From a virus: 26,329 nucleotides of DNA. Positions 1,859 to 25,400 of the stretch are shown piece after piece (position 1 is the first letter of the stretch; each line of letters begins with the position of its first letter). A program made the translations under genes and the position numbers. The stretch lies in IMG/VR virus record IMGVR_UViG_3300009052_000022, positions 1-26,329 of that record; one strand, 5' to 3'. Below the pieces are notes generated by a model. That model was not told the origin of the DNA. It was given only the letters and a program-made list of their open reading frames with translations, and made no database searches.

Positions 1859-4800
1859 ATGAAGTTTAAAAGTAATATAGAGGTACAGGCTGGTATAGAA
1901 GACAAAGACGGTCAGGTAGGAAGCAGCGGTCAAATACTAGCTTCAACTGGTAGTCAAGTTGATTGGATAGATCCAGCCAGTATAGTTACATCGGCCACAG
2001 ATGTAATTATAGAGTGTAAAAACACTTCAGGTGTTACTATAACAAAAGGCACGCCAGTTTACCAAACAGGTAATGTTGGTGCTACGGCTGTTATAGAGAT
2101 AGCAGTAGCTGATGCTTCAGATGAAGATAAGATGGCTGCTATTGGACTTTTACAGTCTGACCTTATAAATAATGCTTTTGGATATGTAGTTGTAACAGGA
2201 GGGCTTTTAAACATCACCACATCACCTATAGACGGATCGACTCCTACTGTTGGAGATACAATATATGTAAAACCAGGAGGTGGACTTACACTTACAAAAC
2301 CAACCGGGGTTAATTTTATACAAAACGTAGGTTTAATAGGTAAAGTATCTGGCGGTAACGCTGGATCAATTACTGTATCTTCTATAATGAGGAGCAATGA
2401 CGTACCAACACCTTTATATATAGATCATGATAATCAACGCTTAGGGATCGGAACGACTAGTCCTAACACCTTACTTGATGTGTCTAGCGGAAATTTTGGG
2501 GCAACTGCGCCTACGGTAAGAATAACAAACACCATAAACGTTGGTGATTGGTCTCCAGTTACAAGCGATTTAGGTAGATTTGAATTTTTCACAGATGACA
2601 CTTCTGGAAATGCACCATATACTTTAGGGTACATTGGAATAAAAAATGATTATACAACAGGTGCTCCAACTTTGCCCAGTGGAGCAATGGTGTTTGCAAC
2701 AACCACGTATAATGCTTTAGGCGGAGCCGTGGAAAGAATGCGTATTGATAGTTCAGGCAACGTAGGTATCGGAACGACTAGTCCTGGCACTCTTCTTGAG
2801 ATATCTGGAAACTCACAAGCGTCAACACCTGCTTTACGTGTAAATTGCACTGATTCTAGTGTTCAGCTAAATCAAGTTGCTGGAGCTGTTCAGTTTTCAG
2901 TTAACGACGCTTCAACCCCAGGAGCTGGTGTAAAAACTTCTATAAATAGTATAGCTTTAAATAGTATAGGTAGTAGTTATGGATTAGGGTTTAACACTAC
3001 TAGTGGTGTTAATAACGTTGAGCGTATGCGTATAGACTCAGACGGTAACGTAGGTATAGGAACGACTAGTCCTCCAAAAAAGCTTAGTATATCTGGAACT
3101 AAAAATACCTCTATAATTCGCTTAGGAAGTACAACTAATGGTTCATCTTGGTCAATTGGTGATAAAATTGGAGCAATTGAATTTAGTTCAGCAGATGGGT
3201 CAGGAGCAGGATCAGGAGTTAAAGCGTCTATATCATACGAAGTAGAAGCAGGAACAACGGGCTCAACTAATTCAATGGTATTTAGCACAGCAGGTACAAG
3301 TGCTGGTACTAACAATACAGAAAGAATGCGTATTACCGCAGCAGGAAACGTAGGCATCGGGACGACTAGTCCTGCTTATCAACTTACGCTAGGGGGTAAT
3401 GCTGTTGGCAGCACTGAAGGTTTAAGAATAAACGACCCTTCAAATGCAGCGTATGGTGCTCATTTTAGTTTTTCTGATACGCCTAGTGAGGTTTGGATTG
3501 GTGGAGTAACAAATAACACTTATAATTCAGCAATAAGTATACATAGGGATACTACTAGAGCCATAACAATAGATATCAACAGCAACGTAGGTATAGGGAC
3601 GACTAACCCAGGGTCTAAGTTAGATGTAAAAAGTTTAGCAACAACTGCTGAAACTATTGCACAATTCGGTAATGGTAATATACAAGGCGGATTAAAAATT
3701 AAAACTAACGGAAACTTAGAATGGGGTCTTGAAACTTTAAACGCACGTAGCTTAACATTGGGTACTAACAATACAGAAAGAATGCGTATTGACACAGTAG
3801 GAGCAGTGATTATAGGTGATCAACCAAAAATCGACACAGCTACGAAATTGCAAGTTAGTGGCAGTAGTTCAGGAGTAACTTCAATTTGGAGCAATGCAGA
3901 CGATATAGTATTTCAAAACAATAATAACGTAGGAATTACACTTGCCTCTCCAAACACGGGTATAGCTACTATAGCTTTTGCGGACCCAGAAAGTGTACAA
4001 GCAGGTTTTATACAATATAAACATACTGATAATTCAATGAGTTTTGCTACAAATGGCAATAACACAAGGATCTTTATTAACTCAAGCGGCAACGTCGGCA
4101 TTGGAACGACTAGTCCTGACGCTCGATTAGATGTAGATAAAAGCGTTATAATAGGAAGTGAATCAACAGCCACTTCAGCAACAAATATTGAAAACGTATT
4201 AAAAGTTAAAGGTAAGAATAATTATTCTGACGGCACAACTTGGTATGGAGATTACGGGCAAATATTATTAAGTGCTACTAACAACATGACATCAAGTGCT
4301 AGGCAGTTTTTAATAACAAATGCTTTAGATAATAATAAATTTGCCATTATTAGATCAACTGATTGGTCAACGCCTCCATTAACAAACTCAACAGCAGCTG
4401 GTGTAAATAGCGGTACAGCTGATTTCGTTATAGACAATGGGGGAAGCATCGGTATAGGAACGACTAGTCCTGATGCTAAGTTAGATGTTAATGGAGCTGT
4501 TATAACAAGAGGAAACTTAGGCTTCATTAACTACGCTACGCAATCCGAAGCTTACTACACAAAAATAGGTACACAATACAATTACAATGAGTCCTTTGTA
4601 ATAGAGCATAAGCAACAAAAAATAATGACATATTCCGATAGTGACGGGTTGGGATTAGCTTTAAACGGTGCTGGGCTTATAAGATTTATGAACGGCTCAA
4701 ACGAAAGAATGAGAATTTCAGGTAATGGAAACGTAGGTATCGGAACGACTAATCCTAGAACTAAGTTAAATGTAAAAGGTGCTAGCTCAGAAGGCGGTGG

Positions 4801-5608
4801 GGTTTTAACTTTAGAAAACTCAACAACATCTACAGGTATTGCTGACTATGTTGGTAAAATTCAGTTTTATGGAAATGACAGCGGAACTGGAGCAAGTGGC
4901 ATAAGAGCTTCTATTGATGCAAATATACAAGGCTACAATGGAGAAACTGATTTAGTTTTTAGCACAGCTCCCGCTAGTGGAGCCAACACAGAAGCAATGC
5001 GTATTGACCAAAACGGCAACGTCGGCATCGGGACGACTAGTCCTCAAGCTAAACTTCACGTATCAGGAGGTTCTTCTATTGAAACAACTTTAATAGTTGG
5101 CGCTGAAGGAACTGGTTCTGATAAATCGGCAAGAGTGTTTTTAAATGAAGGAGAGGGAGGAGTTTCCAATTCAAAAGACTATGGATTTTCACTAGCTTAT
5201 GATGGACAAGGTGCTCAATATGGGGGATTATCCGCAAACCAATTCGGAATACTTAGACATAACAACAGTGCTGTTGGAGGGGCTGTAATGGTTATGAATA
5301 GAACTAATAACAACACAACGTTTACAGGGACAGTTACAGGAACTAACTTTATACTATCTTCTGATGAAAGGCTTAAGAAAAATATTGAAGAGGTTGACAA
5401 TAAATCTATTAAAGCAGATTGGAAAACTTTTGAATTAAAAACCGAAAAAGGACAAAAAAGATACGGAGTTATAGCTCAAGAGTTAGAAAAGACCAACCCA
5501 GAGTTTGTAAGAGAAGACGCACAAGGGTTTAAGTCAGTTGCTTATATAGATTTACTAATCGCTAAAATTGCTGAGTTAGAAGCAAGATTAGAAAAAGCAG
5601 GAATATAA
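1859..5608 (+). CDS. Repeat-built tail fibre/spike with C-terminal S74 intramolecular chaperone
   Basis: A 1,249-aa fibre. The N-terminal 180 residues form a virion-attachment-like region. About residues 195-1070 are occupied by some ten modules, each with (E)RMRI-x-x-x-GNVGIGTTSP followed by a KLDV-like strand. The last 83 residues are an S74 (endosialidase-type) chaperone domain: it begins SSDERLKKNI at residue 1167 and has the hallmark YGVIAQELE at about 1202-1210, then a terminal helix with heptads. In characterised members this domain assembles the trimer and then cleaves itself off just before a Ser in the SSDERLK motif, using a Ser-Lys pair; both residues are present here. The last base of its stop is the first base of the next ATG (TAATG), suggesting coupling. 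The fibre role is strongly supported; cleavage is inferred from the family. Confidence 0.88.
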   Translation: MKFKSNIEVQAGIEDKDGQVGSSGQILASTGSQVDWIDPASIVTSATDVIIECKNTSGVTITKGTPVYQTGNVGATAVIEIAVADASDEDKMAAIGLLQSDLINNAFGYVVVTGGLLNITTSPIDGSTPTVGDTIYVKPGGGLTLTKPTGVNFIQNVGLIGKVSGGNAGSITVSSIMRSNDVPTPLYIDHDNQRLGIGTTSPNTLLDVSSGNFGATAPTVRITNTINVGDWSPVTSDLGRFEFFTDDTSGNAPYTLGYIGIKNDYTTGAPTLPSGAMVFATTTYNALGGAVERMRIDSSGNVGIGTTSPGTLLEISGNSQASTPALRVNCTDSSVQLNQVAGAVQFSVNDASTPGAGVKTSINSIALNSIGSSYGLGFNTTSGVNNVERMRIDSDGNVGIGTTSPPKKLSISGTKNTSIIRLGSTTNGSSWSIGDKIGAIEFSSADGSGAGSGVKASISYEVEAGTTGSTNSMVFSTAGTSAGTNNTERMRITAAGNVGIGTTSPAYQLTLGGNAVGSTEGLRINDPSNAAYGAHFSFSDTPSEVWIGGVTNNTYNSAISIHRDTTRAITIDINSNVGIGTTNPGSKLDVKSLATTAETIAQFGNGNIQGGLKIKTNGNLEWGLETLNARSLTLGTNNTERMRIDTVGAVIIGDQPKIDTATKLQVSGSSSGVTSIWSNADDIVFQNNNNVGITLASPNTGIATIAFADPESVQAGFIQYKHTDNSMSFATNGNNTRIFINSSGNVGIGTTSPDARLDVDKSVIIGSESTATSATNIENVLKVKGKNNYSDGTTWYGDYGQILLSATNNMTSSARQFLITNALDNNKFAIIRSTDWSTPPLTNSTAAGVNSGTADFVIDNGGSIGIGTTSPDAKLDVNGAVITRGNLGFINYATQSEAYYTKIGTQYNYNESFVIEHKQQKIMTYSDSDGLGLALNGAGLIRFMNGSNERMRISGNGNVGIGTTNPRTKLNVKGASSEGGGVLTLENSTTSTGIADYVGKIQFYGNDSGTGASGIRASIDANIQGYNGETDLVFSTAPASGANTEAMRIDQNGNVGIGTTSPQAKLHVSGGSSIETTLIVGAEGTGSDKSARVFLNEGEGGVSNSKDYGFSLAYDGQGAQYGGLSANQFGILRHNNSAVGGAVMVMNRTNNNTTFTGTVTGTNFILSSDERLKKNIEEVDNKSIKADWKTFELKTEKGQKRYGVIAQELEKTNPEFVREDAQGFKSVAYIDLLIAKIAELEARLEKAGI
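2450..5044 (+). repeat. Nine near-identical 15-bp fibre-module junctions
   Basis: The 15-mer GGAACGACTAGTCCT, or a version differing at one to three bases, starts at 2450, 2771, 3059, 3359, 3596, 4103, 4457, 4742 and 5030, always in the same frame and encoding GTTSP or GTTNP. Spacing is 237-507 bases. A tenth, degenerate module lies near 3800-3830. The intervening sequence is much more diverged than the junctions. Confidence 0.9.
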
Positions 5609-6825: not shown

Positions 6826-8379
6826 ATGAATGGAATTGTCAAGAACTTGAACTTTGGTGATGACGCCAGGGATCAAGTATTTAAAGGTATAGAGAAACTA
6901 GCAAAAGCCGTTAGCTCTACACTAGGGGCTGGCGGTAAATGCGTAATGCTAGAAGACAGTGCAGGTAACCCTATTATAACAAAAGACGGTGTAACTGTAG
7001 CAAATTCAATAATACTTTTAGACCCTGTAGAAAACATGGGATCTACTTTATTAAAAGAAGCTGCTAGAAAAACTGTACAAGAAGCCGGCGACGGAACAAC
7101 AACAGCTACTGTATTAGCTCACGCTATATTAGAAGAAGCTTATGCTGTTTCTGGAAAGAAAAACTCTAGAGAAATTAAAGACGGTATAAATTCAGCTGTA
7201 GAGAAAGTTATAGATTACTTAGATACTATAGCTACTGATGTTAAAGGTAACATGTTAGATCACATAGCTTCTATATCGGTAAATAATGACAATGAATTAG
7301 GATCTATTATAGCAGATGCTTTTAGATCTGTAGATAATACAGGTATTGTAATGATGGAAACTGCCGGTGACGGTAAAACTGTTTCTGAATTAATTGAAGG
7401 AGTTCCTTATGACAAAGGTTTAACAAATTCTCATTTCATTACAAACCCTCAAACAAAAACAGCGGAATTAGAAAACCCGTTAGTGTTAATAATGGAATCA
7501 CCAGTTAACACTATAAGAGATATACAAAAAGTGCTGGAGTACGTAATAAAAAACAACAAACCTTTGCTTATAATAGGCGACTTAGAAGAAGGTGTTTTAT
7601 CAACTCTAGCTACAAATAAGAAGAAAGGGAACTTGAAAGTTAATGTAATTAACGCTCCAACTTACGGTATAAGTAAGAGAGAAGTTCTTGAAGACCTTTC
7701 TTTACTAACAGGTGCCACAATATTTAATGAAGATTTAGGAGATGATGCAGATTCTATTGATTTAGATTATTTAGGTTCTTGTTTAAAGAGTGTTACGTCT
7801 CACGAGGACACTGTTATAACAGTCTCTGAGGCATCCGAAAAGATAAAGGATGTAATACGTAATATAAAAGAAAAGCTTACAAATAACACGCTTAAAAGTT
7901 GGGAAGTTATAAAGCTTGAAAAAAGATTGTCAATGCTAACTGCTAAAATTGCGGTGGTTAAAGTTGGTGCAAACTCTGAAGTAGAGTTAAAAGAAAAAAC
8001 AGACAGGGTAGAAGATGCTATCTGCGCCACGAAAGCGGCTGTTAAAGAAGGTATTGTTGCAGGTGGTGGTGTTGCGTTACTAAACGCAGGTCAAAAGCTA
8101 ATAGCTAAAAATATAGGAGAAAAAGTTTTGTTAAAAGCAATACAAGCTCCTTACTTTACAATATTAGAAAACGCTGGAATAGAAATGTCTGGTATACAAG
8201 ACGAAGGAATTGGATTAAATGCTTTAACAGGTAAACCTGTAAATATGGTGGATCAAGGAATAATAGATCCGCTTATGGTAACCAAAAGTGCATTAAGAAA
8301 CGCTGCGTCTGTAGCTACTACAATATTATCAACTGATTGTGTAATTAATAATTTAAGAGCAAATGAAGGCGATAGGTAG
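6826..8379 (+). CDS. groEL: Phage-encoded chaperonin GroEL (Cpn60)
   Basis: A 517-aa group I chaperonin, recognisable over its full length. Key ATPase residues are present: TKDG with D54 (E. coli D52), GDGTTTAT at 88-95 with D89 (D87), and VEDAICATK with D397 (the hydrolysis residue D398). VAGGGVALL and the C-terminal AASVATTILSTDC region are also intact. It differs from the bacterial type in three ways. The nucleotide loop reads TLGAGG instead of TLGPKG. Several apical substrate-binding positions are changed to smaller or polar residues. The C-terminus stops at ANEGDR without the GGM-rich tail, giving 517 rather than about 548 residues. groES follows with a 17-base overlap. It probably folds phage proteins in the host cytoplasm with that partner. 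Identification is firm; the substrate is unknown. Confidence 0.95.
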   Translation: MNGIVKNLNFGDDARDQVFKGIEKLAKAVSSTLGAGGKCVMLEDSAGNPIITKDGVTVANSIILLDPVENMGSTLLKEAARKTVQEAGDGTTTATVLAHAILEEAYAVSGKKNSREIKDGINSAVEKVIDYLDTIATDVKGNMLDHIASISVNNDNELGSIIADAFRSVDNTGIVMMETAGDGKTVSELIEGVPYDKGLTNSHFITNPQTKTAELENPLVLIMESPVNTIRDIQKVLEYVIKNNKPLLIIGDLEEGVLSTLATNKKKGNLKVNVINAPTYGISKREVLEDLSLLTGATIFNEDLGDDADSIDLDYLGSCLKSVTSHEDTVITVSEASEKIKDVIRNIKEKLTNNTLKSWEVIKLEKRLSMLTAKIAVVKVGANSEVELKEKTDRVEDAICATKAAVKEGIVAGGGVALLNAGQKLIAKNIGEKVLLKAIQAPYFTILENAGIEMSGIQDEGIGLNALTGKPVNMVDQGIIDPLMVTKSALRNAASVATTILSTDCVINNLRANEGDR

Positions 8380-8629
8380 AAACTTAATAATAAAGAAAGA
8401 AAAAGAAGGTATAACTCCTACAAAGGGAGGATTACTTTTAGCTGAAAAACAAAGAGAAGATATCAGATACATTAAAGCATCTGTAGTATCTCCAGGAGAA
8501 GAAGCTATTAATGCTGGTATGAAAGAAGGTGATTTAATATATTACGACAGACATGCTGGCCATATTATAGAAATAAACGGTGATCCGTATCAAGTTATAA
8601 AAATGCAAGATATAGTTGTAGTTTTATGA
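8363..8629 (+). CDS. groES: Phage-encoded co-chaperonin GroES (Cpn10)
   Basis: An 88-aa Cpn10 protein. It contains the mobile-loop signature TKGGLLLAE at about residues 20-28, with LLL in place of the IVL tripeptide that docks onto GroEL, then the MKEGDLIYY core strand and the closing QVIKMQDIVVVL strand. Compared with E. coli GroES (97 aa), the segment between the VVSPG strand and the MKEGD strand is about eight residues shorter, which removes most of the roof hairpin. T4 gp31 is known to lack this roof and to enlarge the folding cage, so a similar effect is a reasonable inference. Its ATG lies inside the end of groEL, and the following gene starts at its stop (ATGA), so the three are probably translated together. 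Confidence 0.9.
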   Translation: MKAIGRNLIIKKEKEGITPTKGGLLLAEKQREDIRYIKASVVSPGEEAINAGMKEGDLIYYDRHAGHIIEINGDPYQVIKMQDIVVVL

Positions 8630-10171: not shown

Positions 10172-10480
10172 ATGTCTTTTAAATTACAAAATCCTCCATA
10201 CGCTATAGATAACACACCTATTTATAGCGTAGATATGGAAGACGGAGTTTTAGGAAAAGCTAATAATAACGGTACTATTATAGTAAACAAAAATCTTTCG
10301 CCTGCTATGTTAGAAGGTGTTGTAAAACACGAAAAGATACACATAGATCAAATGAAACGTGGTGATTTAGATTACGATGATAATAATGTGTATTGGAAAG
10401 GTAAAAAGTATTCAAGAGCTCAGATGAAAGAAGGGGCTAAAAACTTGCCCTGGGAAGCTGAGGCATATAGAAAAGCATAA
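10172..10480 (+). CDS. Small HExxH metallopeptidase-like protein
   Basis: A 102-aa protein with a zinc-peptidase core: VVKHEKIHIDQM gives HEKIH at residues 53-57, and a downstream PWEAEAY (about 93-99) supplies a candidate third, glutamate, ligand, as in compact gluzincin-like peptidases. The region before the motif is two or three short strands (GTIIVNKNL). There is no signal peptide, so any secretion would need the nearby holin. It is directly followed (TAATG) by the holin-like gene. It could be a lysis enzyme cutting peptidoglycan cross-bridges, or a prohead or tail maturation protease. The sequence supports a metallopeptidase, not its substrate. Confidence 0.6.
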   Translation: MSFKLQNPPYAIDNTPIYSVDMEDGVLGKANNNGTIIVNKNLSPAMLEGVVKHEKIHIDQMKRGDLDYDDNNVYWKGKKYSRAQMKEGAKNLPWEAEAYRKA

Positions 10481-10881
10481 TGAAAAAAATACTAGAATTT
10501 TTTAGCACTAAAGTTTTTAAACAAGTAGGTGATGTAGTTGATAAACTATTCACTAGCGAAGAGGAAAGATTAAATGCTAGAAATCAAATATTTAAAGTAT
10601 TGCAAGACGCTCAGTTAGAACTGCAGAGAATGCAAACAGAAATTATTGTAGCTGAAGCTAAAGGTAATTGGCTGCAAAGAAGCTGGAGACCAATACTAAT
10701 GCTTTCATTTGGTTTCATAATTATATATACAAAATTTATATCACAGTTATCAGCACACTTAATAACACCTGTTTTAGAACCAGAATTCTGGAGGTTATTA
10801 GAGATAGGTATTGGAGGTTATGTTATTGGTAGAAGTGCAGAAAAAATAGCAGACAAAGTAGGACCGCTATTTAAAAAGTAA
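10480..10881 (+). CDS. Holin-like membrane protein (gene-transfer-agent holin family type)
   Basis: A 133-aa protein matching the pattern of the GTA-type 3TM holin family. It has an N-terminal amphipathic region, a helix with EEERLNARNQIFKVLQDAQ, then the stereotyped AEAKGNWLQRSWRP (about residues 58-71) leading into a hydrophobic segment (72-88), and a second one at about 103-118 ending GIGGYVIGRSAEKIADK. The QRSWRP and GGYVIGRSxEK motifs are the family's hallmarks. Two strong TM segments are visible and a third is uncertain. In lysis it would form membrane lesions that release or activate the endolysin. It is coupled to the metallopeptidase-like gene upstream. No classical endolysin is visible in the window. 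Confidence 0.75.
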   Translation: MKKILEFFSTKVFKQVGDVVDKLFTSEEERLNARNQIFKVLQDAQLELQRMQTEIIVAEAKGNWLQRSWRPILMLSFGFIIIYTKFISQLSAHLITPVLEPEFWRLLEIGIGGYVIGRSAEKIADKVGPLFKK

Positions 10882-11427: not shown

Positions 11428-12033
11428 ATGAGAAGTCTATATGATTTTATCGTCAAGCCGCTTGGTGATAAATATGACAACGAAATAAAGCTAGGAGACG
11501 TTACACTAATACTAAACACTAAAATTGAAAACTTTAAAGCAGTTAATAATTTAGCTATAGTAGTTGAAACTCCAAAAGCTTTTAAAACAGATATTAAAAA
11601 AGGAGACATAATAATAATACATCATAATGTATTTAGAGTTTTTTATGATATCCGAGGTAATAAGAAAAAAAGTAGATCATACTTTAATGATGATTTATAT
11701 TTTTGTTCAGCAGATCAAATATATTTGTATAAGAATACCGGGGATTGGAAATCATTTGGCGACAGATGCTTTGTAATGCCTTTGAAAAACAAAGACACTT
11801 TAAGGTCACAAAAAGAGCAAGAACTTATTGGTATACTAAAAATCGGTAATAGTTCATTAAAAGCACTTAATATCAACCCAGGAGACACGATTGGATTTAC
11901 TCCAGGTAGCGAATGGGATTTTATTATAGATGATCAAAGAGTTTATTGTATGAAATCTAATGATATTGTAATTAAGTATGAACACAAAGGAAACGAAGAA
12001 GAATATAATCCAAGCTGGGCATGTAGCAGTTGA
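11428..12033 (+). CDS. Tandem GroES-like (double Cpn10-fold) protein
   Basis: A 201-aa protein that reads as two GroES folds in series. The first half (about residues 5-103) has LYDFIVKPLGDKY, a possible mobile loop LGDVTLIL, a LAIVVETP strand, IKKGDIIIIHHN and a final DDLYFCSADQIYLYK. The second half (about 112-184) has DRCFVMPL, IGILKIG, NPGDTIGFTPGS and IDDQRVYCMKSNDIVIKYE. The latter lines up with GroES 'VGDIVIF ... IDNEEVLIMSESDILAIVE'. Tandem Cpn10 proteins are known as chloroplast Cpn20. Only the first half has a plausible hydrophobic mobile loop. It starts immediately after the previous stop and overlaps the next gene by 56 bases. Fold similarity is my reading; co-chaperonin activity is inference. 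Confidence 0.6.
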   Translation: MRSLYDFIVKPLGDKYDNEIKLGDVTLILNTKIENFKAVNNLAIVVETPKAFKTDIKKGDIIIIHHNVFRVFYDIRGNKKKSRSYFNDDLYFCSADQIYLYKNTGDWKSFGDRCFVMPLKNKDTLRSQKEQELIGILKIGNSSLKALNINPGDTIGFTPGSEWDFIIDDQRVYCMKSNDIVIKYEHKGNEEEYNPSWACSS

Positions 12034-12253
12034 AGAATTAATTAAGGTAGCTAAGGAGGCTATTATTGATTCTGAAGATGATATATCTGCTGACAGATTA
12101 AAAAACGCTGCAGCTACAAAAAAACTAGCTATATTCGATGCCTTTGAAATACTTACTAGAATAGAGGAAGAAGAAGAAAAACTAAATGACAAACCAAAAG
12201 AAGCTACAGGAGAAAAAGCTTTTAGGGGTTTTGCAGAAGGGAGATCTAGGTAA
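11978..12253 (+). CDS. Small-terminase candidate (helical protein upstream of terL)
   Basis: A 91-aa, almost wholly helical protein: KKNIIQAGHVAVEELIKVAKEAI, then an acidic turn, DRLKNAAATKKLAIFDAFEILTRIEEEEEKL (a strong coiled-coil candidate), and a basic FRGFAEGRSR tail. The position directly before the large terminase, sharing TAATG, and the helical oligomerisation-like segment suggest a minimal small terminase subunit or terminase accessory protein. It lacks a clear DNA-binding HTH, and small terminases are typically longer, so this is tentative. The only in-frame Met is the first residue, which forces a 56-base overlap with the tandem GroES-like gene unless a non-ATG start is used. Confidence 0.45.
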   Translation: MNTKETKKNIIQAGHVAVEELIKVAKEAIIDSEDDISADRLKNAAATKKLAIFDAFEILTRIEEEEEKLNDKPKEATGEKAFRGFAEGRSR

Positions 12254-14463
12254 TGTACGAGCAAACTTTAGTAAAAATATTAAAAGACCATATAAAGCCT
12301 ACTATATTTAAAAGATTAAATAGGTATAAAAAATGGGAGTATGGCTACAACAAAGAACATGACGTAGTTGTTATTAGTAAAACAGGTCAAATAGGACAGG
12401 TTTACGAAATACAGGGAATTAAGATAGCTCTACCTAAAGAAGATGACGTGGTTACTTTTGATGGAAATAGATGGAAATATTCTGAATATCCAAAAGAACT
12501 AAATAGAATTAAATCAGTATTTGATTGGGATGAATACCCGGTTGAGTTTAAAGAAAAATGGTATGACTATATTGATACAGAGTTTAAAAGGCGTGAAGAA
12601 GGTTTTTGGTTTTATAACAAAGACAAGCCTTCTTATATTACTGGTACTCACTACATGTACTTGCAGTGGTCCAAGATTGATGTTGGGCAACCAGATTTTA
12701 GAGAATCAAACAGATTATTCTTTATATTCTGGGAAGCTTGTAAAGCAGATGTACGGTGTTACGGACTGTGTTATCTTAAAAACAGGAGATCGGGTTTCTC
12801 TTTCATGGCTTCAGGCGAGACAGTCAACCAGGCAACCATTTCCACAGACTCACGATTTGGTATTCTTTCAAAGTCCGGGCCAGATGCCAAAAAGATGTTT
12901 ACTGATAAGGTCGTCCCCATCTCAGTCAACTATCCTTTTTTCTTCAAACCAGTCCAAGACGGAATGGATAGGCCGAAGACGGAACTTGCGTACAGGGTAC
13001 CAGCGTCCAAATTCACCCGTAAAAAACTTGACTCCAATGAAAAGCTACAAGAGATCACGGGTCTCGACACAACGATCGACTGGAAAAACACGGGAGACAA
13101 CTCCTACGATGGTGAAAAATTAAAACTACTAGTACATGATGAAAGTGGAAAGTGGGAAAGACCAACAAATATATTAAACAATTGGAGGGTAACTAAAACT
13201 TGTTTAAGATTAGGTTCAAGAATTATAGGTAAGTGCATGATGGGATCAACATCAAACGCTTTAGATAAAGGTGGTGAGAATTTTAAAAAATTATATTATG
13301 ATTCCGACGCAACAAAAAGAAACGCCAACGGACAGACTCGTTCAGGACTCTATAGTTTGTTCATACCTATGGAATGGAACTACGAAGGATACATTGATTC
13401 TTATGGATTTCCTGTATTTGAAAAACCAACAAAACAAACCGAAGGCCCCGATGGGTCGCTAATAACTCAAGGCGTAATTGATTATTGGAATAATGAAGTA
13501 GAAGGATTAAAGGGAGATCAGGATGGTTTAAACGAATACTATCGTCAGTTTCCAAGAACAGAACAACATGCCTTTAGAGACGAGGCAAAACAATCTCTGT
13601 TTAATTTAACAAAGATATACGAACAAATAGATTATAACGAAGACTTAAGAAATACAGCTATAATAACCACAGGAAGTTTTATGTGGGAAAACGGTATCAA
13701 AGATACTAAGGTTGTTTTTGTACCAAATAAAAATGGTAGGTTTAATGTTAGCTGGGTTCCTCATGTAGGACTTCAAAATAGAGTTATTGTAAAAGGCGGT
13801 GTAAAATATCCTGGTAACGATCACTGTGGCGCTTTCGGGTGTGACAGTTATGATATATCTGGAACCGTTGATAAGAGAGGATCTAATGGTGCTTTGCACG
13901 GTTTAACTAAGTTTAGTATGGAAGATGTTCCACCTAATAGATTCTTTTTAGAATATATAGCTAGACCGCAAACCGCTGAGATATTTTTTGAAGACGTATT
14001 AATGGCTTGTGTATTTTACGGAATGCCAATACTTGCTGAAAATAACAAACCTAGGTTATTGTATCATTTTAAAAGAAGAGGCTATAGAGGCTTTTCAATG
14101 AACAGGCCTGATAGAAGATTAAACAAATTATCTGTAACTGAAAGAGAAATAGGTGGAATACCTAATTCAAGTGAGGATATAAAACAAGCACACGCTGCAG
14201 CTATAGAATCTTATATAGAAACTTGTGTTGGGCAAACAGAAGCTGGTTATGGAGATATGTATTTCCAAAGAACATTAGAAGATTGGGGTAAATTTAATAT
14301 AAACAATAGAACAAAGCATGATGCTTCTATAAGTTCAGGACTTGCCATAATGGCTTGTAATAAAAATTTATATTCACCAGTTAGTCCAGTGCAAAAGAAA
14401 GTTTACGATTTAGGAATTAAAAGATATGACAATAGAGGTTCTTCGTCTAAAATATTAAGATAA
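12253..14463 (+). CDS. terL: Terminase large subunit (DNA-packaging ATPase/nuclease)
   Basis: A 736-aa packaging motor. The ATPase domain shows a degenerate Walker A (YLKNRRSGFSFMASGE, about residues 174-189), a Walker B LLVHDESGKW with D296/E297, and a coupling motif MMGSTSN at about 329-335. The RNase H-like nuclease domain begins with CGAFGCDSYDISG (D531), continues past FFLEYI and a helix with FFEDVLMACVFYG, and ends with TKHDASISSGLAIMACNK, giving the expected acidic residues. It would translocate DNA through the portal encoded next (one base after its stop codon). Oddity: codons for about residues 165-286 are far GC-richer than the rest of the gene (see findings), yet the protein motifs are intact. 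Confidence 0.92.
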   Translation: MYEQTLVKILKDHIKPTIFKRLNRYKKWEYGYNKEHDVVVISKTGQIGQVYEIQGIKIALPKEDDVVTFDGNRWKYSEYPKELNRIKSVFDWDEYPVEFKEKWYDYIDTEFKRREEGFWFYNKDKPSYITGTHYMYLQWSKIDVGQPDFRESNRLFFIFWEACKADVRCYGLCYLKNRRSGFSFMASGETVNQATISTDSRFGILSKSGPDAKKMFTDKVVPISVNYPFFFKPVQDGMDRPKTELAYRVPASKFTRKKLDSNEKLQEITGLDTTIDWKNTGDNSYDGEKLKLLVHDESGKWERPTNILNNWRVTKTCLRLGSRIIGKCMMGSTSNALDKGGENFKKLYYDSDATKRNANGQTRSGLYSLFIPMEWNYEGYIDSYGFPVFEKPTKQTEGPDGSLITQGVIDYWNNEVEGLKGDQDGLNEYYRQFPRTEQHAFRDEAKQSLFNLTKIYEQIDYNEDLRNTAIITTGSFMWENGIKDTKVVFVPNKNGRFNVSWVPHVGLQNRVIVKGGVKYPGNDHCGAFGCDSYDISGTVDKRGSNGALHGLTKFSMEDVPPNRFFLEYIARPQTAEIFFEDVLMACVFYGMPILAENNKPRLLYHFKRRGYRGFSMNRPDRRLNKLSVTEREIGGIPNSSEDIKQAHAAAIESYIETCVGQTEAGYGDMYFQRTLEDWGKFNINNRTKHDASISSGLAIMACNKNLYSPVSPVQKKVYDLGIKRYDNRGSSSKILR
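12740..13110 (+). other. GC-rich compositional patch inside terL
   Basis: A hand count gives about 47% G+C over 12781-13080, against roughly 30-35% in the neighbouring 60-base lines on either side. Third positions switch from A/T to C/G (GTC, TCC, CTC, ACG, AAG) and return abruptly near 13120. The patch covers the Walker A region up to just before Walker B, and it also opens a long reading frame in another frame (12521-13123). Confidence 0.75.
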
Positions 14464-16872
14464 ATGAAAATACAAACAAATACCGATAGTTCTTTCCCTA
14501 ACCAAGTTGTTAGCGACGAAGTAAAAGCTAGTTACGATTATGGCTTACAAGTCTCTAGGGCTATTGAACAAGAGTGGTTCAATCAAGGAAGAGGTAATGG
14601 TAATAGATATTTAAACAACTGGAATAGTTTTCACACACTACGGTTATACGCCAGAGGTGAACAATCAATACAAAAATACAAAGATGAATTATCTATAAAT
14701 GGTGACTTGTCTTATCTTAATTTAGATTGGAAGCCTATACCAGTAATATCAAAGTTTGTAGATATTGTTGTAAACGGTATGTCTAATAAGTCTTATGACA
14801 TAAGTGCTTTTGCACAAGATCCTTTTTCTGTAAAACAAAGAACGGATTATGCGGCTGCGGTTGAAAGAGACATGAACACTAAAGAAGCTCTTGTTAATAT
14901 TAAAGAAAACCTAGGTATGGATTTTTCTTTAACAGGAAGCTTAGAAAGTTTACCCGAAAATCAAGAAGAGTTAGATGTTCATTTACAAATGACCACTAAA
15001 CAAAATGTTGAAATAGCGGAAGAAGAAGTTATAAATAATGTATTAGCTTTTAATAAGTACGATCAAACAAAGAAACGTTTAGCTCAAGATTTAACTACTA
15101 TTGGTATTGGAGCTGTTAAAACATCTTTTAATAAGTCAGAAGGAATAGTAACTGACTATGTTGATCCAGCTAATATGATTTATTCATATACAGAAGATCC
15201 AAACTTCGAGGATATATATTATGTAGGAGAAGTGAAGTCTATATCATTAGCGGAACTTAAAAAACAATTCCCATCATTATCAGCATCAGAGTTAGAAAAA
15301 ATACAAGATATGCCTGGTAATTCTCAATATGTAACTAATTGGGGAAATTATGATGCTAACACAATACAAGTTTTGTACTTTGAATATAAAACATATTCAG
15401 ATCAAGTATTTAAAATAAAGAAAACAGAACAAGGCTTAGAAAAAACATTAGAAAAGTCAGATACATTTAACCCACCTGAAAACGATAACTTTGAAAGAGT
15501 ATCAAGAACAATAGAAGTTTTATATTCAGGAGCTAAGGTTTTAGGTACAAATACAATGTTAAAGTGGGAGATGGCTGAAAATATGACCAGACCTACAGCG
15601 GATACTACAAAAGTAATGATGAATTACTGTATATCAGCTCCTAGAATGTATAAAGGACGTATAGAATCTATAGTTAGTAAAATTACTAGCTTTGCTGATA
15701 TGATCCAAATAACACACCTTAAACTACAACAAGTAATGTCTAGAATAGTACCAGATGGTGTATTTTTAGATATGGATGGGTTAGCTGAAGTTGATTTAGG
15801 TAACGGTACTACATACAATCCAGCAGAGGCATTGAATATGTATTTTCAAACAGGTTCTGTTGTAGGTAGATCATTAACACAAGACGGAGAATTAAATAGA
15901 GGTAAAATACCAGTACAAGAATTATCATCTTCAAGCGGGCAAGCTAAAATACAAAGCTTAATAGGTACGTATCAATATTATCTACAAATGATAAGAGACG
16001 TAACCGGATTAAACGAAGCAAGAGATGGAAGTGCTCCGAGTAAAGATGCATTAGTAGGTTTACAAAAAATAGCAGCTAATGCTTCTAATATTGCAACCAA
16101 GCATGTATTAGACTCTTTATTATACTTAACCGTTAGAACTTGTGAAAACATTAGTTTAAAAGTTGCTGATGTTATTGAAAATCCTTTAACTGAAAACGCT
16201 TTAACAAATGCTATAAGTACATTTAATACAAAAACTCTTGAAGAGTTAATGAATTTACAGCTACATGACTTCGGTATTTATTTAGAATTAGAACCAGAAG
16301 AAGAAGAAAAAGCTTTATTAGAACAAAATATACAAGTTGCTTTACAAACACAAGCTATTCAATTATCTGACGCTATTGATATTAGGCAAATTAAAAATAT
16401 AAAATTAGCTAATCAATTCTTAAAGCTTAGACAAACTCAAAAGATTAAGAGAGAACAAGAGCAACAACAAAGAAATATACAAGCTCAAGCTCAAGCAAAT
16501 GCAGAGTCTGCTGAGAAAGCTGCTATGTATGAAGTTCAAAAACAACAAGCATTAACTGCTGAAAAAGTTAGCATTGAACAAGCTAAGTCTCAGTTTGAAA
16601 TAGAAAGAATGCAAACAGAAGCTCAAATAAAAAGAGAGTTGATGGCTGAAGAATTTCAATACAACATACAGTTAGCTCAAGCTCAAATAGGTGCAGCTCA
16701 AGCAAAAGAGCAAGAAATAGAAGATAGAAAAGATAAAAGAATTAAAATGCAAGGTACCCAACAATCTGAATTAATAAATCAAAGACAGACAGATGGTTTA
16801 CCTAAGGACTTTGAATCATCAGGAAATGATGTATTAGGCGGGTTTGGATTAGAACAGTTTGGGCCTAGGTAA
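14464..16872 (+). CDS. Portal protein
   Basis: An 802-aa protein directly after terL. It forms the dodecameric ring through which DNA enters and leaves the head and to which the tail attaches. Supporting features are the gene order terminase-portal-scaffold-capsid, the size, an N-terminal region with LDWKPIPVISKFVDIVVNGMSNKSYD, a 'DYVDPANMIYSYTEDPNFED' wing segment, and a 'TGLNEARDGSAPSKDALVGLQKIAANASN' stretch (about residues 515-545) typical of marine phage portals. From about residue 617 to 775 it is a long Gln/Ala/Glu-rich coiled coil, like portal barrels that extend into the head. Start at 14464 follows the terL stop with no gap. No frameshift is seen. Confidence 0.85.
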   Translation: MKIQTNTDSSFPNQVVSDEVKASYDYGLQVSRAIEQEWFNQGRGNGNRYLNNWNSFHTLRLYARGEQSIQKYKDELSINGDLSYLNLDWKPIPVISKFVDIVVNGMSNKSYDISAFAQDPFSVKQRTDYAAAVERDMNTKEALVNIKENLGMDFSLTGSLESLPENQEELDVHLQMTTKQNVEIAEEEVINNVLAFNKYDQTKKRLAQDLTTIGIGAVKTSFNKSEGIVTDYVDPANMIYSYTEDPNFEDIYYVGEVKSISLAELKKQFPSLSASELEKIQDMPGNSQYVTNWGNYDANTIQVLYFEYKTYSDQVFKIKKTEQGLEKTLEKSDTFNPPENDNFERVSRTIEVLYSGAKVLGTNTMLKWEMAENMTRPTADTTKVMMNYCISAPRMYKGRIESIVSKITSFADMIQITHLKLQQVMSRIVPDGVFLDMDGLAEVDLGNGTTYNPAEALNMYFQTGSVVGRSLTQDGELNRGKIPVQELSSSSGQAKIQSLIGTYQYYLQMIRDVTGLNEARDGSAPSKDALVGLQKIAANASNIATKHVLDSLLYLTVRTCENISLKVADVIENPLTENALTNAISTFNTKTLEELMNLQLHDFGIYLELEPEEEEKALLEQNIQVALQTQAIQLSDAIDIRQIKNIKLANQFLKLRQTQKIKREQEQQQRNIQAQAQANAESAEKAAMYEVQKQQALTAEKVSIEQAKSQFEIERMQTEAQIKRELMAEEFQYNIQLAQAQIGAAQAKEQEIEDRKDKRIKMQGTQQSELINQRQTDGLPKDFESSGNDVLGGFGLEQFGPR

Positions 16873-18031: not shown

Positions 18032-19510
18032 ATGGCAAATGTAAGTCCAGCGTTCGGGAGTTTAATCCCAACGCAAAAAAAGCAAGCCTTAGAGGGCAAT
18101 TATTTAAACTTTACTGATGGGACGAATGATTTCGCACAACAGTACTTACCAGAAATCTATGAAGCTGAAGTAGAGCGTTATGGAAATAGAACCTTAAGTG
18201 GTTTCTTAAGAATGGTAGGAGCTGAAATGCCAATGACTTCTGATCAAGTAGTATGGTCTGAGCAAAATAGATTACACATCTCTTATGAGAATGTAATAGC
18301 AACTAATGCAGGTGCTGTAGGAGCAAAAGTTTCTACTTTAACTATACCTGTTGGCGGTGCTGGTGCAACTCTTATTCAAAATGTTGTATCCCCTGGTTCT
18401 ACTATTGTAGTGATGAATCCAGCAACTGGAGCAGAATTAAACTGTTACGTTGTTGCTTCTGGAGCTACTCCTGGAAGTGCTTTAGGTGCTGGTGTATTAA
18501 CTGTTGCTCCTTATTCTCAAGAAGCATTAGATGGAACTGGAGCTGGAGCTGCTGAAATAGATTTAGTGACTGGTGGACCAGCGCTTAAGATCTTTGTATA
18601 TGGATCTGAATACGGAAAAGGAACTGGAGACGCTAACAGAATTTCTGTAACGCCTTCTTTCACTCAGTATTCTAACTCTCCTATTATCATCAAAGACAAG
18701 TATGCAATCAACGGATCTGACACTGCTCAGATTGGATGGGTTGAAGTAGCTACTGAGTCTGGTCAAGGAGGTTTCTTATGGTACTTAAAAGCTGAATCTG
18801 AAACAAGATTACGTTTTGAAGACTACTTAGAAATGTCTATGGTAGAAGGTGAATTAAAATCTGGAACCTCAACTACAACTGCTAAAGGTACTGAAGGTCT
18901 TTTTGCTGCTGTTAAAAGCCGTGGAAATGTATTAGTAGACTTTACTGCAGCAACTGGTTTAGCTCAGTTTGATTCAATTCTTAAAAACTTAGATACTCAA
19001 GGAGCTATCGAAGAAAACATGTTATTCTTAAATAGAGAAACTTCTCTAGATTTTGATGATATGTTAGCTACTGTTGGTCAACAAGGTGGGACTGGTATAT
19101 ACCAAGGAGGTAGTTCTTATGGTGTATTTGAAAATTCTGAAGAAATGGCATTGAACTTAGGTTTCTCTGGTTTCAGAAGAGGTTCTTATGACTTCTACAA
19201 AACTGACTGGAAATACTTAAACGACGCTTCTACTCGTGGTGGTGTTGCTGATGCTGGTATCGAAGGAGTATTAGTACCTGCTGGAACTTCTACAGTTTAC
19301 GATCAAATATTAGGAACTAACATCAGAAGACCTTTCTTACACGTAAGATATAGAGCTTCTCAAGCTGATGATAGAAGAATGAAAAACTGGATCACTGGAT
19401 CTGTAGGTGGCGCTGCTACTTCTGATTTAGATGCTATGGAAGTTCACTTCTTATCTGAAAGATGTTTAGTAACTCAAGCGGCTAACAACTTTGTGTTATT
19501 CACAGACTAG
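18032..19510 (+). CDS. Major capsid protein
   Basis: A 492-aa protein, the shell subunit, expected to adopt the HK97 fold. Evidence: position after portal and scaffold; an N-terminal arm (FTDGTNDFAQQYLPEIYEAEVERYGNRTLSGFLRMVGAEM); an 'ISYENV' strand; a Gly/Ala-rich inserted region at about residues 90-190, rich in GxGA and probably an insertion domain; a spine-helix candidate with FLWYLKAESETRLRFEDYLEMSMVEGEL; and a C-terminal IRRPFLHVRYRASQADDRRMKNW segment followed by LDAMEVHFLSERCLVTQAANNFVLF. Codon use is distinct from neighbours (preference for TCT, GGT, GCT, AAC, TTC, TAC), as expected for the most strongly translated gene. A long hairpin follows its stop. Confidence 0.85.
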   Translation: MANVSPAFGSLIPTQKKQALEGNYLNFTDGTNDFAQQYLPEIYEAEVERYGNRTLSGFLRMVGAEMPMTSDQVVWSEQNRLHISYENVIATNAGAVGAKVSTLTIPVGGAGATLIQNVVSPGSTIVVMNPATGAELNCYVVASGATPGSALGAGVLTVAPYSQEALDGTGAGAAEIDLVTGGPALKIFVYGSEYGKGTGDANRISVTPSFTQYSNSPIIIKDKYAINGSDTAQIGWVEVATESGQGGFLWYLKAESETRLRFEDYLEMSMVEGELKSGTSTTTAKGTEGLFAAVKSRGNVLVDFTAATGLAQFDSILKNLDTQGAIEENMLFLNRETSLDFDDMLATVGQQGGTGIYQGGSSYGVFENSEEMALNLGFSGFRRGSYDFYKTDWKYLNDASTRGGVADAGIEGVLVPAGTSTVYDQILGTNIRRPFLHVRYRASQADDRRMKNWITGSVGGAATSDLDAMEVHFLSERCLVTQAANNFVLFTD

Positions 19511-22406: not shown

Positions 22407-25400
22407 ATGGCTGAGATTAAAAATACCTTTCTTAAAGGGAAAATGAATCAAGATCTTGACTCTCGTATATTACCAAATGGTGAATATAGAGAAGCTAGAA
22501 ACTTATCTATAAGTAGATCAGAAAGTTCTACAGTAGGTGAGTTTGAAAATGTTTTAGGTAATACAGCTATATCTAGTTTAACAGCCATTGGGGCATCCGC
22601 TACAACTGAAATAATTGGACAGCTAATTGATGAAAATAGCAATGTAGCATACTTTTTAGCAACAGACTATGATTCTCCAACCGAGGTTAGAGCTACTGCG
22701 GCAGATAATTGTTACATAGTTAAAGTAGATTTATCTGTAACCGTAAACACTAATCCTATAATTTTAGTTCAAGGATTCTTTTTAAATTTTAACAAAAGCT
22801 TTCCGGTAACAGGTATAAACTTAGTTGAAGATTTATTATTTTGGACTGATAATCTTAATCAACCTAGAAAAATAAATATTGCAAGAGCTCTTGCTGATGC
22901 AACTCATTACACAAATGAAGATCAAATATCTGTGGCTAAATATGCTCCTTATGAGCCAATATTAGTAATGGATAGAGTCAATGCTGTAATTACTTCACCT
23001 GACCCAGCTGTTAGCACTACTACTATAATTATAGATGATGATGCTGATTATGCTTTAATAAAAGTAGGTGATATAGTTACTGACAAAAACAAAATAACAA
23101 ACCAACAAATAACTGGATTAGTTACTGTTATAGGAAAACCGGATCCTGCCGCAACTCGTGCATTAACATTGTCTAGTGCTATTACTGTAACAAACGGCAC
23201 TGCAATTGACTTCAGTAGACCGAGTATGACTAATAAAAGGGATTTTGAAATGGCTAACCATTCGTCTGGAGCCGTTACAATTGATCCTATACCAGCAGTA
23301 GGCGCGACTAATCCGATAACGGCTACATACACTATAGGTCAAGGCTTAGGTGATAATGACACTAGTAATTTTATATATGGAGGAGACAACGGTATACCTA
23401 GAATAGGAGACTTAGTTAGCGGTGATGGTATTAGCCCAGACACAAGGGTAGCAAGTGTTAGCGTAGTTAATCAATATTCAAACCCCCCAAATTCATCAGC
23501 CCCTGAAAGATTTCGTACTTGGCAAGATATAACTTTTACTCTAAACAAGACAACTACATTAGCAAGTGCCGGTGTTATATCTATAAGTGATAATCCAAAT
23601 TATGACGCTGCCTGGCAAGGTGATGAGAAACTACTAGAAGATAAGTTTATAAGATTTAGCTATAGATTTAAGTTTGAAGATAACGAGTATTCATTAATGG
23701 CACCATTTAGCCAAGTAATGTTTATACCTAAGCAATATAGTCAGTTTGGTGGAGGTGCTTTTTCAGACGAGCAAGATATGGACAATACTTATAAATCAAC
23801 TATTGTTAATTGGTTTGAAAATAATATAAATAATATATTATTAAAAATACCAATACCTAGTACAAGTGTTGCTAATACGATTTCTGAATTAAAAATAACT
23901 GATGTTGATATACTTTATAAGGAGTCTGATGCGCTGGCTGTTAAAGTTTTAGAAACTGTTAATTTATTAACTCCCACACCTATTGAATCCTCAATAGACT
24001 TTTACGATGCTGTTAACGGAAATAATACAAAGCATTTCATAGATTATGACTACAGCTCAACAAAACCATATAAAACATTACCTAACAACCAAATAACTAG
24101 AGTGTCTGATAAAGTGCCTATTAGAGCATTAGCTCAAGAAATAATAGGTAACCGCATTGTTTATGGTAATTATTTAGATAGACACACCGGTCCTAATTCG
24201 ATAGCTTTTAGTGCTTTTGCCTCTAACAAGTCTACAAATTTTGACAACTATACTCAATTTCCGAAACATCAATTAAAACAGGATAGAACTTATCAAGTTG
24301 GTTTTGTGCTGTCAGATAAATACGGAAGACAATCAGACGTTATATTATCATCCTATGATGGAGTGGCTAATATACCTGGATCTACTGTCTTTAATCCTTA
24401 TAATGACATAACAACACAGCAGCAGTCGCCAATACTTGATTGGCTTGGTAATGCTTTAAACGTAACTTTATACGAAGCAATAAATCCAGCCTACGATCCT
24501 ATCACGGGTTCACCTGGAGTTTACAATGCAACAACTAATCCTTTAGGATGGTATTCCTATAAAATAGTTGTAAAACAAACACAACAAGAGTATTATAATG
24601 TTTATTTACCAGGTTTTGTAAATGGCTATCCTGTTATACAAAACTTAAGTGCTGAAAGAGACACTAGCTTTTTCACAACATTATTAGGTGATAATATAAA
24701 TAAAATACCTAGAGATTTATCAGAAGTAGGGCCTAATGATATAGACTTTACTAGTAGTGAGAACATAATGATAAGGGTTAATAACCCTAGAATAAATAAC
24801 AAAACAGAGGCTAATCCTCCGTATCTTCAAGACAGAGCGTGGAATGCTCAATACTATCCTGGTAATATAGAACAAGAAATAATACAAATAGGTACAGTTA
24901 GAGATTTAGAAATACAAGCAATTCCTTTTAAAGCAAACGCTATAGAGGGAGAGTATGGTGAGTCTAGCATATTACAAGCGTATAATTACTTTACTGCAGG
25001 AGACCCCAGTACTGGAATAGAAAGTGTTAACGAAATTCCAGAACCTACAGGCGCAATACCATGGGGTACAACAGGACCAGACGCTACTTTTTACAATGGA
25101 GACTCAAACCCATTTATTATTAAAGGTAGTCAATCGCAAAATAAAAATAATCCAATAGGAGCCTATGTAACAACTCTTTCTGTAAATGAAGACAATCCTG
25201 CTCAATCAGTGTTATCAATGGTACCGTTTTTATCCGTAGCGGAAACGAAACCCGTAGAATCATTGTTAGATATATATTGGGAAACATCGTTATCAGGTAA
25301 TTTAGCAACGCTTAATTCACTGGTAAGTTCACAAGATAGCGGTTTGATAGGTTCTAATTTTCAAGCAACAACTTTTCCAGAAAGCATAACTAGCAATGAT

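Follow-up and report, generated by a model that had tools for sequence, protein, structure and literature searches.

A groEL-groES pair and a tandem GroES-like gene in a phage contig related to podophages of Flavobacteriia: a probable three-part chaperonin kit

Several chaperonin systems have been described in phages and plastids. According to passages of PMC6318259, phage T4 gp31 works with the host GroEL, and its missing roof loops and longer mobile loop are credited with the folding of the 56-kDa capsid protein gp23. Parts of PMC5934643 describe the GroEL proteins of Pseudomonas phages EL (gp146) and OBP as working without a co-chaperonin. In Arabidopsis, as stated in an excerpt of PMC4242682, Cpn10(1) is active only when mixed with Cpn20, and seven-fold hetero-oligomers are held in a section of PMC5780408 to be most likely in Arabidopsis and Chlamydomonas. 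Phage genomes with both groEL and groES are already known, from deposited annotations (MW202828.1, Elemovirus, phi40:1, immuto, and Calle_1) and from a 2024 paper in which homologs of GroEL and GroES are named for phage Panino; the virioplankton chaperonin study of Marine et al. 2017, known by title only, may describe such pairs as well. Here, we analyze a groEL-groES pair and a third gene for a tandem GroES-like protein, tES, in the virus record IMGVR_UViG_3300009052_000022 (positions 1-26,329, the whole 26,329-base record, hereafter the window). An earlier note on this DNA had presented the pair as unusual for phages, a view that the annotations listed above do not support. The three genes probably provide the phage with its own modified group I chaperonin kit, comprised of a GroEL ring, a GroES that lacks the roof, and a tandem lid-like protein, for the folding of virion proteins.

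The pair is complete and intact, as the earlier note had proposed. The groEL reading frame runs from an ATG at 6826 to a stop at 8379 with zero internal stops, and groES is likewise uninterrupted from an ATG at 8363 to a stop at 8629. PHROGs and Pfam both name the two genes. GroEL matches PF00118 at 1.7e-55 (189.1 bits, cut-off 34.3) over profile positions 1-487 of 490 and also scores above the NCBIfam models NF009487 (464.2 vs. a cut-off of 352) and NF000592 (460.3 vs. 397), while GroES matches PF00166 at 1e-10 (41.9 bits, cut-off 21.1); phmmer hits of GroES to polyubiquitin were dismissed as low-score repeats. In 15 comparisons against the window over groEL, groES, and tES, dN/dS was 0.06-0.16 (five of which have a dS close to 1 or higher). 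All three genes are under purifying selection, and frameshifted or chance open reading frames are ruled out by these ratios.

The IMG/VR scans kept the best 80 of 420 groEL stretches, the best 80 of at least 600 terminase stretches, and the best 80 of 280 tES stretches, and the named relatives (L001-L004) were excluded from viral-only counts. Throughout the 80 viral groEL loci, groES lies directly downstream of groEL on the same strand, with an overlap of 17 bases in 69 loci and of 20 bases in 11; several of the 20-base overlaps start at a TTG that was assigned as the start by script, and the overlap is 1 base in some divergent relatives. The bacterial loci have the opposite order, groES being upstream of groEL in 22/22 of those in which it was found (30 examined). 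The 17-base overlap and the reversed gene order remarked on in the earlier note both stand. A chaperonin of the EL/OBP type, which dispenses with a co-chaperonin, was rejected on low similarity (the EL protein, phage-encoded like that of the window, matches it at 26% over 77%) and on the presence of groES downstream in all 80 loci.

Bacterial GroEL rows for comparison comprised the 30 best-scoring loci of 61 genomes (60 matched) from the phylum of genome G003, taken as Bacteroidota from the title of L376, together with four more loci and E. coli, which is a non-random draw. In the alignment, the ATPase residues D54, D89, and D397, the aspartates pointed out in the earlier note, correspond to E. 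coli D52, D87, and D398, and every one of the 86 rows of the window clade and of the 34 bacterial rows has them. Among the positions of E. coli L234, L237, and V264, which we take to be hydrophobic positions of the GroES-docking groove, the first is Gln in all 86 clade rows and Leu in all 34 bacterial rows, the second is retained in all 86 clade rows, and the third is changed to Met in 62 and to Thr in 24. Since the residue at L234 is Leu in Elemovirus, Glu in Panino and in MW202828.1, and Ala in phi40:1, Gln marks the clade of the window only. With the docking groove altered in this way, a dedicated GroES partner is plausible. In addition, the C-terminal GGM tail is absent from window GroEL, and no clade row (0/86) has more than one Gly in the last 20 residues; 6/34 bacterial rows also have only 0-1 Gly there, so the tail is not universal.

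A GroEL tree of 61 rows took 12 of the 86 clade rows and three rows from metagenome-assembled genomes (MAGs) that were regarded as phage. The window falls in a 15-row clade with support of 100/99, made up of these 12 rows, all viral, and the three phage-like MAG contigs, and all 35 sampled bacterial GroELs are within the 39 rows beyond a 99/98 branch from it. The Elemovirus and Panino GroELs adjoin the clade without support (44/92) and with long-branch warnings. Judged by this tree, window GroEL belongs to a clade of phage type that does not fall among the bacterial groEL genes sampled. The earlier note had named a tree with both proteins inside one host groESL clade as a refutation, an outcome that the tree does not show for GroEL; GroES is too short and diverged for the same comparison. 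In a scan of genome contigs, eight GroEL loci were found, seven of which (63-73% identity to the window) look like phage contigs binned into MAGs. The GroEL genes of L373-L379 and L385-L387, 63-73% identical to that of the window, are on contigs of 3-42 kb whose MAG labels are Aliivibrio, Sphingobacteriales, Flavobacteriaceae, Woesearchaeota, and Desulfobacteraceae, and which are probably misbinned phage.

With regard to GroES, the GGLLL mobile loop that the earlier note had read is present: GG followed by a hydrophobic triplet occurs in 71/71 non-identical phage GroES rows (LLL in 66, LFL in 3, and LIL in 2). In the AlphaFold model of window GroES, the loop (residues 20-31) has a pLDDT below 50, and counted on the alignment it is 3 residues longer than that of E. 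coli GroES. The roof beta-hairpin is missing, the aligned phage rows having 7 (window) to 9 residues fewer than E. coli GroES. Part of the roof is also absent in two of six aligned Bacteroidota GroES proteins, so that a missing roof alone is not phage-specific. T4 gp31 is likewise a phage co-chaperonin with no roof and a longer mobile loop, but its partner is the host GroEL, and structure comparison does not bring window GroES nearer to gp31 (Z 8.2-8.4) than to bacterial Cpn10 (Z up to 10.0).

The third gene, tES, was missed in the earlier note. Its product matches phrog_13932 ("co-chaperonin GroES") at 1.4e-23 over 1-182. The C half matches the phage GroES profile at E 1.4e-5 and the bacterial GroES profile at E 0.0013. 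For the N half of the tES alignment, neither the C half nor the phage GroES profile was matched significantly, and none of the N halves of six tandem proteins was significant against the bacterial GroES profile (best 0.024). Pfam Cpn10 matched 24 of 39 tES members, weakly, with a best E of 0.0012 and the window at 0.066, below the cut-off. Searches of the PDB found no co-chaperonin up to E 1 with the tES profile and none with the single window sequence. Alignment A1 comprised 38 of 44 picked tES rows and alignment A2 28 of 29, and the tES and GroES profiles used for searching the named relatives were rebuilt without L002-L004 in order to avoid circular hits.

The AlphaFold model of tES (pLDDT 85.4) has as its best PDB match 7ekq_R, a subunit of the Cpn20 co-chaperonin, at Foldseek E 3.9e-5 and TM 0.52. 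By VIA, the two align over 158 positions (residues 1-185) with a root-mean-square deviation of 4.6 and Z 9.3, where best Z values of 7-8 are common without kinship. The next structural matches are single GroES chains on residues 103-187, while residues 1-107, taken by themselves, reach no more than Z 5.0, against GroES-like domains of dehydrogenases. tES is thus predicted to hold two GroES-like domains, the N half being so read on predicted structure and the C half on structure and some sequence similarity. Chloroplast Cpn20 has mobile loops in both domains. Like window tES, it carries two GroES-like domains per chain beside a single-domain partner; however, no sequence match between the two was found, the C-half loop of tES is short, and there is no evidence of shared tandem descent. 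By eye, a long loop bearing a hydrophobic patch is seen only in the N half of window tES; the C-half loop is short, as in the aligned viral-contig rows. In the tandem protein of phage phi18:3 (gp096), the N and C halves each show longer stretches that resemble loops. PMC literature searches found no description of the tandem two-domain form, although the tandem gene is labelled cpn10 or co-chaperonin GroES in many records.

The three genes keep company. All of groEL, groES, and tES are found in 16/16 searched viral records larger than 42 kb, of which 11 were reached via groEL or groES (all with tES) and five via terminase or tES (all with groEL and groES). Among 19 whole viral records, tES occurs in 19 and groEL and groES in 16, the other three records being 12.7-17.0 kb in length. 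At the level of loci, tES is present in 76/80 groEL loci and 74/80 terminase loci; in the six terminase loci that lack it, the upstream stretch is shorter than 700 bases, and of the four groEL loci that lack it, two (L043 and L070) carry it elsewhere in the whole record. Wherever a groEL locus has both tES and terminase, tES is upstream of terminase on the same strand (76/76), 219 bases apart in 61. One record of 129,537 bases (G068, IMGVR_UViG_3300047157_000162) has two tES genes, two groES genes, and a second groEL broken by stops, and is possibly concatenated or mis-assembled.

On the evidence of its genes, the window is part of a phage genome that is kin to podophages of Flavobacteriia. 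Its terminase is 63.9% identical to that of MW202828.1 and 35-45% identical to those of Elemovirus, Panino, Callevirus, and Baltivirus phages, whose hosts are Flavobacterium, Maribacter, and Cellulophaga. Among 50,697 phage records, 87 match the window terminase and 272 the window GroEL, some of the latter bacterial-looking; a phage GroEL, with or without other chaperonin genes, is thus a common find. A tandem gene is present in 85 of the 87 terminase-related records, 77 matching the phi40:1 tandem protein and eight Baltivirus records matching phi18:3 gp096 (organism counts), and two Tenacibaculum records match neither. As 68 of the 85 are near-identical Elemovirus records, such counts overstate independent cases and reduce to about five lineages. 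The tandem gene seems at least as constant as groEL in this terminase lineage.

Several named relatives show how the locus compares. MW202828.1 (Podoviridae sp. ctfjg026, Manatee Spring) shares the overlapping groEL-groES and a tandem gene one gene before terminase, but its groEL is only 34.6% identical and its tandem gene is labelled hypothetical. Elemovirus (elemoF_6-3D) also has groEL followed by groES, a terminase of 44.7% identity, and, directly before it, the tandem gene gp30 (labelled co-chaperonin GroES), whereas its groEL and groES are 39% and 30% identical to those of the window. The Callevirus phages phi38:1, phi40:1, and Calle (Pervagoviridae) encode GroEL, Cpn10, and a tandem co-chaperonin directly before terminase (phi40:1 gp089); their order differs, with cpn10, one gene, and then groEL, and GroEL is 35.8% identical. 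In Maribacter phage Panino, the tandem gene is CDS0088, directly or one gene before terminase. The label co-chaperonin GroES in the Panino record (PP540027.1; L004, 23129-23395 and 6828-7376) is on the tandem gene, and the single groES beside groEL is labelled hypothetical.

Baltivirus phi18:3 (Pachyviridae) has, like the window, a single cpn10 (gp080; L438, 31108-31362) and a 200-aa tandem cpn10 (gp096; L439, 6459-7061), the latter one gene before terminase. Both are above the Pfam cut-off, and the viral GroES profile missed gp080, which was found by Pfam. The C halves of gp096 and of phi40:1 gp089 match Cpn10 above the Pfam cut-off, and gp096 resembles the other tandem proteins more weakly (3e-8). 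The suggestion that tES is restricted to phages with a GroEL of their own was dropped, because phi18:3 has the single and the tandem lid with no GroEL hit; its two co-chaperonins together presumably serve the host GroEL. In Tenacibaculum phage Gundel_1 (NC_062747.1; L440 and L441), which has a related terminase, no groEL or tandem gene was found by profiles, the silence of the GroES profile being a weak sign; this phage carries a gene labelled ClpX. A term search of PMC7077304, on Baltic Sea Flavobacterium phages, returned no mention of GroEL, GroES, chaperon, or cpn10.

The GroEL, Cpn10, and tandem protein of phi38:1 are 100% identical to their phi40:1 counterparts. As reported in PMC13288928, mass spectrometry revealed the GroEL of phi38:1, a distant relative, both in infected cells and in samples of free virions; in the latter, two phi38:1 proteins were methylated, GroEL and a putative capsid protein. 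These data show that GroEL is expressed and leave the identity of its clients aside.

The earlier note had suggested a self-sufficient folding machine for late virion proteins. As to the role, this is the likeliest reading, while the pair that was to make up the machine is incomplete, as tES has to be added. Briefly, phage GroEL would capture newly made virion proteins at the stage of virion production, the best candidate being the 52.5-kDa capsid protein; ATP would drive the GroEL ring open, and a phage co-chaperonin would then cap it. The resulting cage may be slightly larger or more open than that of the host pair, as is believed for T4 gp31 on host GroEL. GroEL and the roofless GroES would thus form a folding cage private to the phage, in which tES could act as a second or a mixed lid, the three proteins working as one machine.

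Several observations weigh against this picture. The window is a 26,329-base fragment, and promoters, timing, and other chaperones are outside its view; promoter- and terminator-like sites in it were no more frequent than in shuffled sequence. GroEL falls under the TIGR02348 equivalog cut-off (455.1 vs. 582.1 bits), and is therefore, as far as its sequence tells, a diverged GroEL that is non-standard relative to bacterial ones; GroES is under the cut-off of every one of 14 NCBIfam GroES models (best-scoring, 35.6 vs. 120 bits). Of seven GroEL positions that we assume to be inter-ring contacts, E461 and S463 are kept and five (K105, A109, E434, R452, and V464) are changed or missing, so that a double heptameric ring is not assured for window GroEL. 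The placement of the pair varies as well. Upstream stretches of 5.5 kb or more are available for 26 terminase loci, and groEL lies within the stretch in 19 and is absent from it in seven; two of the seven (L112 and L142) have groEL about 12 kb from tES in the whole record, and the other five are short contigs. In Elemovirus the pair and the structural genes are on opposite strands, and the Callevirus pair sits among replication genes, which argues against a fixed late-gene role. Finally, no GroEL profile match was obtained across the whole phi18:3 genome, the one Baltivirus genome examined whole.

The lid itself may be built in another way. Single GroES and tandem tES subunits might mix into one lid of seven GroES domains, in the style of chloroplast Cpn10/Cpn20, a tentative proposal that we regard as rather unlikely. 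Single and tandem genes are found together in the 16 large records searched and, with no GroEL found, in phi18:3, the best PDB match of the tES model is Cpn20, and the plant work quoted at the outset (parts of PMC4242682 and PMC5780408) supplies a precedent. However, window tES has a long loop only in its N half, phi18:3 gp096 having loop-like stretches in both, and it is encoded several genes away from groEL-groES. The broader form, in which such a mixed lid caps phage GroEL in the lineage of the window or host GroEL in Baltivirus, with the tandem gene tied to head assembly, is slightly more doubtful. If the mixed lid were true, the combination of single with double lid subunits would have arisen independently in phages and in plastids.

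It is equally possible, although again rather improbable, that tES, for all its GroES-like fold, does not cap GroEL and instead serves assembly or packaging together with terminase or portal, near which its gene lies. The constant place of tES upstream of terminase (76/76 loci, 61 at 219 bases), the tandem gene directly or one gene before terminase in MW202828.1, elemoF, Panino, phi40:1, and phi18:3, and the weak sequence similarity of tES to GroES would all suit such a factor. Yet tES accompanies a single GroES in the large records searched and in the same five relatives, the C halves of phi40:1 gp089 and phi18:3 gp096 are above the Pfam cut-off for Cpn10, and the records of these two proteins are without a virion mass-spectrometry note, which their neighbours have.

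It is unlikely that the host GroEL is the main target of GroES, of tES, or of both, with phage GroEL as an accessory. Phage phi18:3, with its two co-chaperonins and no GroEL found, and T4 gp31, which is described in part of PMC6318259 as working on host GroEL, are consistent with it, but all five large records of the window clade that were found via terminase or tES have groEL, and the docking groove of GroEL has a fixed position at which it departs from the bacterial rows. Least of all is the pair a recent host-derived groESL cargo without a special role, a highly improbable reading that three Vibrio phage GroELs grouping with E. coli GroEL in the same tree might favour, but recent host capture was rejected on that tree and window GroEL is only 40% identical to E. 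coli GroEL and 38-42% to 30 sampled Bacteroidota GroELs, belongs to a phage-type clade, and shows the reversed order and low dN/dS.

The genes of the proposed kit of phage GroEL, roofless GroES, and tandem tES are listed with their neighbours in the window in Table 1. As described in the earlier note, the pair lies between fibre and lysis/packaging genes, with the S74 tail fibre upstream and the holin-like, terminase, portal, and capsid-type genes downstream.

Table 1. Features of the window, with positions counted from its first base.
Feature	Position	Strand	Description
Tail fibre	1859..5608	+	C-terminal S74 endosialidase-type chaperone domain; PF13884 2.9e-9; 129.4 kDa
groEL	6826..8379	+	517 aa, 55.1 kDa; group I chaperonin, phage-type clade, without GGM tail
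groEL/groES overlap	8363..8379	+	17 bases
groES	8363..8629	+	88 aa, 9.8 kDa; co-chaperonin of one domain, with GGLLL in the mobile loop and no roof hairpin
102-aa open reading frame	10172-10480		HEKIH (HExxH) motif, by eye; adjoins holin-like gene; possibly a small zinc peptidase
Holin-like protein	10480..10881	+	PF11351 8.5e-12
tES, tandem GroES-like protein	11428..12033	+	201 aa, 23.2 kDa; phrog_13932, AlphaFold model, Cpn20 match
91-aa open reading frame	11978..12253	+	Between tES and terminase; no family; small terminase subunit is a guess from position
Terminase large subunit	12253..14463	+	736 aa; phrog_6681 3.8e-165; 63.9% to MW202828.1
Portal protein	14464..16872	+	802 aa; phrog_6547 5.2e-140; PF16510 3.6e-8
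Virion structural protein	18032..19510	+	52.5 kDa; phrog_13704 1.6e-90; candidate client; probably the major capsid protein, from its position
1307-aa open reading frame	22407-26327		Runs off the fragment end; MW202828.1 and elemoF annotate a gene of about 4.5 kb at the corresponding place as structural

With groEL and groES already known together in phages, what keeps its value is that a phage group represented by hundreds of viral contigs carries a chaperonin kit of three parts, on which purifying selection is strong. The fixed change in the docking groove of GroEL offers a direct handle on the choice of a private partner. The locus also raises the question of why a phage keeps two co-chaperonins, which the cultured relatives phi38:1, phi18:3, and Elemovirus make testable.

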